The position numbers were made by a program, and so were the translations under genes. Of a stretch of 64,000 nt of DNA, positions 44,043 through 47,050 are shown piece by piece. Every line of letters begins with the position of its first letter. Position 1 is the first letter of the stretch. The notes beneath the pieces are model-generated. The model did not search any database, was not told the DNA's origin, and saw only the letters and a list, made by a program, of their open reading frames with translations. This DNA is from Thioclava atlantica (GTDB lineage: Bacteria > Pseudomonadota > Alphaproteobacteria > Rhodobacterales > Rhodobacteraceae). Location: positions 62,001 through 126,000 of the forward strand of contig NZ_AQRC01000007.1 of assembly GCF_000737065.1 (NCBI RefSeq), given 5' to 3'.

Positions 44043-44354
44043 ATGTCCAACCCGCAACCGCTCCCGCCCTGCCCCGATCTCTCCGGACTGACCCGGCCGC
44101 GCCTGCTGGTGCGCGCCGCGCGTTTCGGGCTGCGCGACTACAATCGCCGACGCGACCTGAAGCGGCTGATGCGGCTGGCGGACCCGCCGCATCCCGAGGC
44201 CGCGCTGCGCCAGCTGATGGCCGAAGAAGACGCGCTGGAACAGGCGCGCCGCGCGGGCGAGGCCACCTACAGCTTCGCGCGCCATATCGAGTTGCTGATC
44301 GCGGTGATGGCCGAGGCGCGACTGCTGCCGCGCCCCGCTCTCAGCGAGACTTGA
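44043..44354 (+). CDS. DUF6477 family protein
   Basis: A 103-residue, highly charged, basic protein with LTRPRLLVRAARFGLRDYNRRRDLKRL near the start in pieces and a helical C-terminus (EALEQARR-like ALEQARRAGEATYSFARHIE). No signal peptide or membrane helix. ATG 44043 is chosen because CGGAGG lies six bases upstream; an ATG 15 bases earlier has no ribosome site. Its last 14 bases overlap the convergent YjgR-like gene. Function unknown; it resembles the DUF6477 family seen in Rhodobacterales. Confidence 0.75.
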   Translation: MSNPQPLPPCPDLSGLTRPRLLVRAARFGLRDYNRRRDLKRLMRLADPPHPEAALRQLMAEEDALEQARRAGEATYSFARHIELLIAVMAEARLLPRPALSET

Positions 44355-45924
44355 AGAGCGAGCCCAGAACGCCCCGAACCAGCGCCTGCCCGGTCTTCGT
44401 GCCGAGCTGGCGCGCCAGGCTCTTGCCGAAGGTCTCGACGATCGAATCCGACCGGCTGGAGCGCGAGGAGGTCTTGCGCCGCGTCTTGGCGGCGGGCTCG
44501 TAACGGCGGGCCTTGTTGAACCCGTCGAAGCTGTCCTCGAGCTCCGAACGGCCGCGCGACACTTTCGCGGCCTTCTCGCGCGCCTCGGCCTCCGCTGCTT
44601 CGCGCGCGGCGAGCTCGGCCCGCGCGGCGAGGATTTCCTGTGCCGACTCCCGGTTGACGGACTTGTCGTATTTCCCGCCGAGCCCGGTCTGCGCAATCAC
44701 CGCCGCGCGCTCGGTCACCGTGAGCGGCCCGAGACGCGATTGCGGCGGGCGCACGAGGGTCCGCTCGACCACGCCCGGCACGCCCTTGGCCTGCAGGAAG
44801 GAGGTCACCGCCTCGCCCGTGCCGACCTCCTTGATCGCGATCTCGGTGTCGAAGCGGGGATTGGCGCGATAATTCTCGGCCGCTCGGCGCAGGTCCTTCT
44901 GATCGCGCGCGGTGAAGGCGCGCAGCGCGTGCTGCACGCGGTTGCCGAGCTGGCTGAGAATGCCGTCGGGCACATCGGCCGGGTTCTGCGTGATGAAATA
45001 GACCCCGACCCCCTTCGAACGGATCAGCCGCGCCACCTGCTCGACCTTGTCGACCAGCGCCTTCGGGGCATCGTCGAAGAGAAGATGCGCCTCGTCGAAG
45101 AAGAAGACGAGCTTGGGCTTGTCGGGATTGCCGACCTCGGGCAGTTCATCGAACAACTCGGACAGCAGCCAGAGCAGGAAGGTCGCATAGAGGCGCGGGC
45201 TCGCCATCAGCTTGTCGGCCGCGAGGATGTTGATCTGCCCCATGCCCTCCGCATCGGTGCGGATCAGGTCCGACAGCTCCAGCGCGGGTTCGCCGAAGAA
45301 CTTGTCCCCGCCCTGGTTCTCGAGCACGAGCAGCTGGCGCTGGATCGCCCCGATCGACCGGGTGTCGACATTGCCGTATTCAAGCTCGATCTCGTCGGCC
45401 CGCTCGCCGACATGGCGCAGCATCGCGCGTAGATCGTCGAGGTCGAGGAGCGCGAGTCCCTCCTCGTCGGCCAGATGGAAGGCGATGTTGAGCACGCCCT
45501 CCTGCGCATCCGAAAGCCCCATCAGGCGCGACAGCAAGAGCGGCCCCATTTCCGAAACGGTGGTGCGCACCGGGTGGCCCTGCTCGCCGAACATGTCCCA
45601 GAACACGGTCGGATAGGCGCGGTAGCTCAGATCGAAGCCGATCGTCTCGGAGCGTTCCATGAACGGCTTGTGCAGTTTCGCGGCTTCCGAGCCGGAGGTG
45701 GCGATCCCCGAGAGATCCCCTTTCACATCGGCCATGAAGACCGGCACGCCCGCGGTGCTGAACCCCTCGGCGAGGATCTGCAGCGTGACGGTCTTGCCGG
45801 TGCCGGTCGCGCCTGCGATCAGGCCGTGGCGATTGCCGAACTTGAGCAGCAATTCCTGCGGCGTCCCATATCCCTCGCCGCCGCCGCCGACGAACACGCC
45901 CTCTTCAGTCAGAACTCCCGTCAT
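44341..45924 (-). CDS. HerA/YjgR-like ATPase (DUF853)
   Basis: A 527-residue P-loop ATPase of the DUF853/YjgR group, related to HerA and FtsK. Walker A is GATGTGKT (about residue 40), Walker B is LVFFFDEAHLLF, and FITQNPADVPDGILSQLGNRVQHALRAFT holds the arginine/sensor region (core QNPADVPDGILSQLGNR). The C-terminal 90 residues are charged and partly coiled (ARAELAAREAAEAEAREKA). The physiological role of YjgR is not known. ATG 45924 has GGGAGG close upstream. The 3' end overlaps the convergent DUF6477 gene. Confidence 0.9.
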   Translation of the reverse strand: MTGVLTEEGVFVGGGGEGYGTPQELLLKFGNRHGLIAGATGTGKTVTLQILAEGFSTAGVPVFMADVKGDLSGIATSGSEAAKLHKPFMERSETIGFDLSYRAYPTVFWDMFGEQGHPVRTTVSEMGPLLLSRLMGLSDAQEGVLNIAFHLADEEGLALLDLDDLRAMLRHVGERADEIELEYGNVDTRSIGAIQRQLLVLENQGGDKFFGEPALELSDLIRTDAEGMGQINILAADKLMASPRLYATFLLWLLSELFDELPEVGNPDKPKLVFFFDEAHLLFDDAPKALVDKVEQVARLIRSKGVGVYFITQNPADVPDGILSQLGNRVQHALRAFTARDQKDLRRAAENYRANPRFDTEIAIKEVGTGEAVTSFLQAKGVPGVVERTLVRPPQSRLGPLTVTERAAVIAQTGLGGKYDKSVNRESAQEILAARAELAAREAAEAEAREKAAKVSRGRSELEDSFDGFNKARRYEPAAKTRRKTSSRSSRSDSIVETFGKSLARQLGTKTGQALVRGVLGSLFKSR

Positions 45925-45969
45925 ACCGCCTCCCGCAGAATTGTTCCCCTCAGACAATACTATCTTAAC

Positions 45970-46073
45970 CAGTTCGCGCCAGTCTGAACCTGCCCCGCCA
46001 AGCGCTTCGTCCGCACGGTGGGGCGTTTCCTCCCTGTCAGACTGGCCGCGCCCCGACGGGCGCGGTCTTTTTT
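45970..46073 (+). ncRNA. Candidate small RNA with nested stems and its own terminator
   Basis: No protein gene lies on this strand here, yet the segment ends in a textbook terminator: stem 46044-46053 with 46058-46067 (one G-U pair, loop CGAC), then six T. Upstream, CCAGTCTGA (45979-45987) pairs with TCAGACTGG (46037-46045). Nested inside, GCCCCGCC (45992-45999) pairs with GGTGGGGC (46017-46024) with one G-U. The internal single-stranded stretch TTTCCTCCCTG (46026-46036) contains an anti-Shine-Dalgarno CCUCCC. The 5' end is a guess from where structure begins; TACTAT at 45958-45963 could be a -10 element. I do not recognise a known family. Confidence 0.5.
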
Positions 46074-46123: not shown

Positions 46124-46152
46124 TTGACCTGTGAAAGAAACCGCAATAGCGT
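46124..46152 (+). promoter_or_regulatory. Candidate promoter of the ialB-like gene
   Basis: TTGACC (46124-46129), 17-base spacer, TAGCGT (46147-46152). The -35 is good and the -10 is weak. It would leave a leader of about 200 bases before the gene at 46364. That leader holds a GTCGG-CCAGT-CCGAC hairpin near 46171 and otherwise nothing I recognise. Confidence 0.4.
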
Positions 46153-46363
46153 GCCCATCAATGATGAAGTCGGCCAGTCCGACAGGGGGAAGTAGGAAGG
46201 GGTTCCTTACGGGGCCCCTTTCGCTTTGAGAACGCCCGCATCCCCTTCACGAAACTGTGGCAGCATGCCGCCGATCCGTGATAAACGCGCCGGTTTTCCC
46301 GACTGACACCGGCCCCGGCGCATGTTAAGCGTTCAGCCGAACTGTTTCAGGAGAAGAGTTATC

Positions 46364-47050
46364 ATGTCTCAGCTGACGAAACCGCTCGCACTCGTTCTGG
46401 CCTTCGGCCTTGCGCAGGGTGCCTGGGCGCAGGACAGCTCCGCCACCGACGCCGCGACGCCGACTCCGGCCGCCGATGCGGCGACGACCGACACGCCCGC
46501 GCCCGCAGCCCCCGCAGCCGATGCCGCGCAAGCGGCTCCCGCGACGGGCGATCAGGCCGCCACTGGCGAGGCTGCGCAACAGCAGCAGACCTACACCAAG
46601 GCCACCTATGGCGATTGGGAGCTTCAGTGCATCAAGTCGCCCGACGGCAAGGACCCGTGCCAGATCTACCAGGTGATCAAGGACAAGAACGGCGGCAACC
46701 TCGCCGATATCTCGCTCTTCGGTCTGCCCAAGGGTTCGAAGGCTGCGGCGGGCGCGACGATCATGGTCCCGCTCGACACGCTGCTGACGCAGAACCTGCT
46801 GGTGGCCGTCGATGGCGGCCAGCCCAAGGTCTACCCCTTCACCTTCTGCCAGCCGATGGGCTGCTTTGCGCGGATCGGCCTGCTGCCGGAAGAGCTCGAC
46901 GCCTTCAAGAAGGGCTCGAAGGCGACCATCACCATCGTTCCGCTCGCGGCCCCGAACCAGAAGGTCTCGGCCGACATTTCGCTCAACGGCTTCACCAAGG
47001 CCTATGAGGAAGTGGTCAAGACGAACGAGGAGAGCGGCGCGGTCAAGTGA
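46364..47050 (+). CDS. Invasion-associated locus B (IalB) family protein
   Basis: A 228-residue exported protein. A signal peptide ends at GAWAQD. It is followed by a long alanine/proline/threonine-rich spacer (about residues 23-75), then the IalB domain: ATYGDWELQCIKSPDGKDPC and FTFCQPMGCFARIGL, whose cysteines probably form disulfides. Function in free-living alphaproteobacteria is unclear; the family is named from Bartonella. ATG 46364 has AGGAGAAG upstream. A strong terminator follows the gene. Confidence 0.9.
   Translation: MSQLTKPLALVLAFGLAQGAWAQDSSATDAATPTPAADAATTDTPAPAAPAADAAQAAPATGDQAATGEAAQQQQTYTKATYGDWELQCIKSPDGKDPCQIYQVIKDKNGGNLADISLFGLPKGSKAAAGATIMVPLDTLLTQNLLVAVDGGQPKVYPFTFCQPMGCFARIGLLPEELDAFKKGSKATITIVPLAAPNQKVSADISLNGFTKAYEEVVKTNEESGAVK

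Follow-up and report, generated by a model that had tools for sequence, protein, structure and literature searches.

Two putative small-RNA genes lie side by side on the plus strand of the window, the whole 64,000-nucleotide stretch of Thioclava atlantica DNA that was analysed. The first, at 45970-46073, is, judged by its sequence, a divergent relative of the alphaR8 (MmgR/SisA/suhB) small RNAs that falls just below the curators' line. The second, a conserved and complementary RNA just downstream of the first, was missed in the preliminary description of this DNA. It is probably a dedicated sponge for the CUCCCUGU group of sRNAs, with a role comparable to that of CrfA in Caulobacter; we infer its transcription, its pairing, the involvement of Hfq and the direction of regulation. 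The evidence consists of the conserved sequence, promoter and hairpin of the second RNA, of its complementarity to the sRNAs and of its co-distribution with them. On balance we also favour, with less assurance, the broader view that this is a sponge gene, undescribed and nearly family-wide in the Rhodobacteraceae, with the entire CUCCCUGU group (alphaR8-type and SorX/SorY-type RNAs) under its control, that it has a strongly conserved promoter of the housekeeping type and lies beside one of its own clients, and that it represents a second alphaR8-sponge system besides CrfA. If this is true, a dedicated sponge in most of one large family would be a missing common control of these RNAs.

The alphaR8-type sRNA upstream

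The region 45970-46073 is flanked by a divergent HerA_C gene on the minus strand and an IalB gene on the plus strand:

44341-45924, minus strand: HerA_C-domain ATPase gene, divergent neighbour (PF05872, E 8.5e-219)
45957-45970, plus strand: ATACTATCTTAACC, conserved upstream element, probable promoter/start region of the alphaR8-type sRNA (ATAC-N3..5-TTAA count)
45970-46073, plus strand: alphaR8-type sRNA, about 104 nt, 5' end inferred (fold, RF00519 score, conservation in relatives)
45991-46025, plus strand: inner hairpin, 5' of the seed (mean fold z -2.9 in 148 loci)
46026-46038, plus strand: seed TTTCCTCCCTGTC, in which 46026-46035 is the alphaR8 10-mer (identical to the 10-mer in PMC12559287)
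46044-46073, plus strand: intrinsic terminator of the sRNA (fold, terminator scan, 9-pair consensus stem in 29 sequences)
46364-47050, plus strand: ialB-family gene, downstream (PF06776, E 2e-35)

The preliminary description had proposed an anti-Shine-Dalgarno sRNA gene with nested stems and a terminator of its own. The plus-strand terminator is there with its six T (stem 46044-46067, T run 46068-46073) and, as had been claimed, it ends no annotated gene, the nearest plus-strand gene upstream (DUF6477) stopping at 44354. Conservation supports the gene well: by blastn the sRNA is conserved in 126 of 198 same-family genomes, that of T. atlantica included. The claim of nested stems survives in part. 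Positions 45960-46080 fold at -52.7 kcal/mol, compared with -38.7 +/- 3.5 in 200 dinucleotide shuffles (z -4.0; 0/200 as good), with an outer stem of 10 bp (45978-45987 with 46037-46046), an inner stem of 9 bp (45991-45999 with 46017-46025) and a single-stranded TTTCCTCCCTG, which the earlier account had also described as unpaired. Among 29 aligned sequences, however, the outer stem pairs in 74.2% of cells against 75.0% when shuffled (24-41% in a control in which the partner was slid by 1-3 columns), and a search for covariation found a change on both sides in 0 of its 10 pairs. Because substitutions break the outer stem without compensation, it fails the check that the preliminary description had itself put forward, and with pairing no better than in shuffles it is ruled out as a conserved feature. 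The inner hairpin persists in relatives while its sequence varies: the 46 nt 5' of the seed have a mean fold z of -2.9 against mononucleotide shuffles and fall below -2 in 115 of 148 loci (145 distinct sequences), although a looser yes/no hairpin criterion separates poorly (146/148 loci and 4844/5920 shuffles).

Upstream of the seed, at a distance of 40-110 nt, ATAC-N3..5-TTAA occurs in 125 of the 148 loci with the sRNA; where the second RNA stands without an adjacent CCTCCCTGT seed it occurs in 0 of 13 loci, and this difference points to a promoter belonging to the sRNA rather than to herA. In 140 of the 148 loci the Walker-A frame of HerA is no more than 420 nt away from the seed.

It had been said at first that no family matched this RNA, and here the result is otherwise. 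At Rfam gathering thresholds there was no match anywhere in the 64-kb window, but at a lax threshold the best Rfam match of the sRNA is RF00519 (suhB/MmgR), over the full model, with E 5e-7 and 40.7 bits against a gathering score of 41. The RNA, being 0.3 bit under the cut-off, is not filed as an Rfam member but only as a divergent relative. The core UUUCCUCCCU, common to all alphaR8 RNAs according to an excerpt of PMC12559287, occurs exactly at 46026-46035 and is unpaired in the fold, with a hairpin before it and a Rho-independent terminator directly after it. Corbino et al. 2005 regarded suhB RNAs as probable stand-alone sRNAs with a promoter, a short 5' helix and a terminator (PMC1273637, in excerpt). 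We call the sRNA alphaR8-type because the RF00519 score, the exact UUUCCUCCCU and the published suhB architecture agree. That it is an RNA of no known family, characterised by its nested stems, is now scarcely credible, in spite of the stable nested fold in the window, given the relation to RF00519 and the behaviour of the outer stem. SorX (RF02784; 30.8 bits, gathering score 46.6) and SorY (RF02651; 26.6 bits, gathering score 111) were considered as identities and rejected because of these scores.

The window's sRNA resembles the alphaR8 RNAs (MmgR of S. meliloti, SisA-D of C. crescentus, RF00519 suhB) in having UUUCCUCCCU after a hairpin, then AGACU, with the terminator directly after, and it departs from them in several respects. 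Its hairpin part has 25 bases where the RF00519 model shows 5. Two alphaR8 copies from the same family that lie above the cut-off and were read, L356 and L357, carry CCTCCCTAGACT, whereas the window-type sRNA has GTC inserted within that site (GUC between CCCU and AGACU). The L356 copy adjoins an FGase gene, a linkage that is usual but not universal for alphaR8; the window's sRNA sits instead between herA-like and ialB genes. There are three FGase genes in the T. atlantica genome, and neither strand carries CCTCCC or CTCCCT in the roughly 1.2 kb that follow the domain of the best one. The exact UUUCCUCCCU is present in only 3 of 29 aligned rows, most of which read CUUCCUCCCU; CCTCCCTG is near-invariant, and no more than 3 of the 29 start the 10-mer with U. 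The RF00519 model matched at E <=0.001 in 28 of 61 same-family genomes and above the cut-off in 8. The SorX and SorY RNAs of Rhodobacter sphaeroides (RF02784, RF02651) share with the window's sRNA CCUCCCUGU..GACU followed by a terminator stem, but the window's sRNA has CUCCCUGUCAGAC and not CUCCCUGUUGGAC, and it stands alone whereas SorX comes from a 3' UTR (PMC6238624, in excerpt).

The putative second RNA gene

The second RNA gene with its promoter (46124-46230) lies about 140 nt downstream of the sRNA seed:

46124-46152, plus strand: promoter of the second RNA, TTGACC-N17-TAGCGT (promoter pattern count in 148 loci)
46159-46230, plus strand: candidate sponge, the second small RNA, about 70 nt between inferred ends (R1 model 60.1 bits, E 4e-13, with the copy in the window among the 29 sequences of R1)
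46169-46183, plus strand: hairpin GUCGG-CCAGU-CCGAC of the second RNA (covariation in 29 sequences)
46172-46189, plus strand: stretch complementary to sRNA 46030-46047 (17/18 positions paired, G-U counted; cofold)
46195-46230, plus strand: terminator-like hairpin of the second RNA, weak T run here (predicted fold)

R1 is a covariance model of the second RNA. The RNA is present in 29 of the first 30 loci, the window's own included; the thirtieth, L013, lies at a contig edge and is left out of the alignments, and the 29 sequences, from which R1 was built, match it by construction. A pattern for the second-RNA core matched at least 120 stretches, and 80 were taken as loci, from what are presumably Rhodobacterales-type organisms, bar two MAGs ('Pseudomonadota', 'Alphaproteobacteria') and a Maritalea mobilis record. 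The set of 148 loci omits 14 of the 80 pattern loci, which have no seed, and 7 of the 60 set-3 loci, which have no regular-expression seed (3 of the 7 do match the R2 sRNA model). The pattern, which fixes the second-RNA core, supplied 66 of the 148; counts were repeated in the remaining 82.

In relatives the promoter is of the type TTGAC[CG]-N17-TA[GA]CGT. TTGAC.-N16..19-TA...T was found in 146 of the 148 loci, with N17 in 143 of these, and the promoter is present in 80/80 loci from the pattern scan. The core in most relatives is AGTCGGCC[A/G]GTCCGAC[A/G]GGGAG, followed by a terminator-like hairpin; the T run after it is weak in the window's copy and longer in many relatives, and a terminator scan of the window did not pick up the hairpin at 46195-46230. 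Within the GUCGG/CCGAC hairpin a UA pair has become CG in 2 and UG in 2 of the 29 sequences. The sRNA upstream of it belongs, as a divergent relative, to a known kind; for the second RNA the best match in Rfam 15 has 16.4 bits (cut-off 50, E 0.38) and is not significant.

This RNA appears to be a possession of the window's family. R1 matched at E <=0.01 in 354 of 394 same-family genomes, and at 1e-5 or better in about 325. An order-level search matched 143 of 148 genomes, all 148 of which belong to the window's family, while a class-wide sample gave matches in 4 of 4 same-family genomes (E 9e-9 or better) and weak matches in 19 of 285 genomes of other families (best E 6e-5). One genome, G218, has seven R1 matches at E <=0.01, which may be either true further copies or terminator look-alikes.

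A leader that carries a hairpin and a terminator can be a riboswitch, and ialB follows on the plus strand, so 46124-46230 might be read as a 5' leader or attenuator of ialB and not as a free sRNA. We consider this very improbable, for the terminator-like hairpin is followed by a gap of about 130 nt in which a promoter-like CTGACA..TGTTAAG pair can be seen by eye, and the conserved core of the second RNA can pair with sRNA cores at other places in the genomes. By their order, terminator and then promoter, the two RNA genes look like separate units. The CTGACA..TGTTAAG pair, at 46303-46329 in the window and visible by eye in relatives too, is a candidate for a separate ialB promoter.

The two RNA genes are usually kept together. 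CCTCCCTGT lies within 400 nt upstream of the second RNA in 66 of the 80 pattern loci (1 is cut and 13 lack it), and in 60 loci chosen by the second RNA alone, taken from the lower part of the order-level R1 list, a same-strand alphaR8-type sRNA matching R2 stands just upstream in 56; the other 4 keep the second RNA without an adjacent R2 match. Retention of the second RNA without its neighbour's seed in 13/80 and 4/60 loci indicates that the neighbour is not its only partner. The 13 are L116, L118, L129, L134, L139, L142, L147, L153, L164, L166, L169, L171 and L177; by eye, the upstream sRNA is still visible in L134, L147 and L171 as a variant or decayed copy.

Complementarity and co-distribution with SorX/SorY-type RNAs

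The longest contiguous run of pairing between the neighbours has a mean of 9.7 nt (minimum 8) over the 148 loci, compared with 6.75 when the second RNA is shuffled and 6.6 when it is reversed, and when the pattern-found loci are removed the mean is 9.8 (minimum 8) compared with 6.85 shuffled. In the same 82 loci the variable base x of GAC[x]GGG is either A (55 loci) or G (27), and GT[CT]CG is preceded by A (67), G (13) or C (2); A and G can each pair with the opposite U. The second RNA has AAGU in 16 of 20 loci where the sRNA has ACUUG, compared with 5 of 108 where it has ACUGG (Fisher 9e-13); without the pattern-found loci the counts are 17/19 and 5/60 (5e-11). On a HerA tree of 136 rows (8 of the 148 loci have no readable HerA frame and 4 fragments of <=90 aa were omitted), 128 of them with both traits, these features changed only 10 and 6 times, so few that an independent-pairs sign test has no power, and we regard the seed-loop covariation between the two RNAs as suggestive only.

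Pairing with the SorX/SorY-type RNAs is longer. The second RNA can form 13-14 contiguous pairs with the cores of the SorY-like RNA of T. atlantica and the SorX of L314, compared with 9 nt for the alphaR8-type RNA. None of 500 shuffled second RNAs formed as good a duplex with the SorY-like partner, whereas 39 of 500 matched or beat the full-length duplex with the window's sRNA. The SorY-like sRNA of T. atlantica (G000:C4:257138; L318, about 1457-1544) scores 48.1 bits to RF02651, where the cut-off is 111, and has 14 nt of contiguous complementarity to the second RNA.

The SorX/SorY-type core CTCCCTGTTGGAC is present in 23/23 hand-picked genomes that have the second RNA (13 + 4 without the adjacent neighbour, 5 with it, and that of T. 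atlantica), and 21 of the 24 copies shown precede a stretch of at least five T. In a hand-picked follow-up, which has one genome in common with the 23, it was found in 10/10 genomes with the second RNA and in 9/24 without a match at 1e-5 (p 7e-4). SorX exceeds the Rfam cut-off at L314 and L309. Within several Rhodobacteraceae genomes (L309, L310, L312 and G762, the genome of L164/L316) SorX/SorY-type cores occur in close tandem pairs about 145-320 nt apart.

These data bear on what the second RNA is for. It might be an independent sRNA that targets mRNAs, or serve another partner, the core match being due to a GGGAG that resembles a Shine-Dalgarno sequence, and to chance. The pairing of GGGAG with CUCCC is indeed partly generic SD/anti-SD pairing, the duplex with the window's alphaR8-type RNA is unremarkable beside shuffles, and the second RNA is kept in the 13 pattern loci that have no adjacent seed. 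We nevertheless think this unlikely, as the pairing extends beyond GGGAG, to 13-14 nt with SorX/SorY-type cores and to 17 of 18 positions with the window's sRNA, and in the genomes checked the second RNA occurs only where a SorX/SorY-type core occurs. Several points speak against the sponge proposal: such a core is also present in 9 of the 24 genomes that lack a strong second-RNA match, the full-length duplex with the window's sRNA does not clearly beat shuffles, the second RNA is kept in some loci that lack the neighbour's seed, and the T run after the hairpin of the window's copy is weak.

A second possibility, to which we give more weight though still well below the sponge for both kinds of client, is that only SorX/SorY-type sRNAs are sponged and that the position beside an alphaR8-type sRNA is inherited and without function. 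The longer contiguous pairing (13-14 against 9 nt), the fact that only the SorY-like duplex beats shuffles and the survival of the second RNA where the adjacent seed is missing all agree with it. Adjacency in 56/60 and 66/80 loci argues the other way, as does the association of AAGU with the neighbour's ACUUG, although SorY-type GGACUU could explain that association equally well. The above-cut-off alphaR8 RNAs, of which the two copies read lack the GUC insertion, also argue against it, since they go with no strong second-RNA match: a match at 1e-5 is absent in 8/8 of the genomes that have them and in 8/53 of the others (p 4e-6). One of the eight, G057, has a borderline match at 1.5e-5.

Known systems and a proposed mechanism

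CrfA, a sponge of alphaR8 RNAs in Caulobacter crescentus, acts on SisA-D (PMC12559287, in excerpt). As described there, it is like the second RNA in being G/A-rich, in its complementarity to the alphaR8 seed and in addressing several sibling sRNAs at once. CrfA is induced by carbon starvation, whereas the second RNA has a housekeeping-type promoter, is seen, among the genomes searched, only in the window's family, stands beside an alphaR8-type gene and has a CCAGU hairpin with GACAGGG after it. StsR (RSs0827) of R. sphaeroides, a 72-nt 'sRNA targeting sRNA' (PMC8307010, in excerpt), is of similar length and likewise acts on another sRNA; it depends on RpoHI/RpoHII and binds UpsM, while the second RNA has a TTGAC-N17-TA...T promoter. 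Identity with StsR, judged from its published description, is unlikely. Since StsR, UpsM and Intergenic 134/60 were compared by their published descriptions, a transcript that has already been sequenced and gone unrecognised is possible; the second RNA may already stand unnamed in RNA-seq lists of Rhodobacteraceae, for example as Intergenic 60 or 134 of Paracoccus (PMC5107571, in excerpt). Among the titles and abstracts listed in literature searches, none dealt with a sponge that acts on SorX, on SorY or on an alphaR8 RNA of the Rhodobacteraceae. Excerpts of the literature tie alphaR8 RNAs to carbon use in Caulobacter (PMC12559287) and to storage in Sinorhizobium (PMC7143759), and give R. sphaeroides background for this sRNA group (PMC6238624, PMC8307010, PMC9438474).

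The following mechanism would accommodate these observations. The sRNA at 45970-46073 would act in trans, as a member of the alphaR8 kind, exposing UUUCCUCCCUGUC and pairing with the Shine-Dalgarno regions of mRNAs to block or destabilise them, probably with Hfq; SorX/SorY-type RNAs would likewise repress mRNAs through exposed anti-SD seeds. The adjacent gene (about 46159-46230) would make a short RNA from its housekeeping-type promoter. In the alphaR8-type sRNA, ACUGG and CUCCCUGUC could be the partners of this RNA's CCAGU loop and of the GACAGGG that follows; the same region could pair with CUCCCUGUUGGAC of the SorX/SorY-type sRNAs over a longer unbroken run. By capturing CUCCCUGUC-A-GACUGG or CUCCCUGUUGGAC it would hide the seed and possibly invite decay, in the manner of CrfA with SisA-D. 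Masking of the seeds would set a threshold for the whole sRNA group, and the conserved -35 and -10 elements with their 17-nt spacing suggest steady transcription, such that the clients would act only when they exceed the level of the sponge.

A genome-wide search with CAGGGAGG-N3..12-ATG gave 31 matches (30 places, two of which overlap), compared with 2 in a reversed control, and duplex energies were computed for 30 of the 31. The excess looks like a general Shine-Dalgarno signal, and no target is named for that reason; in principle the seed could pair at many start sites.
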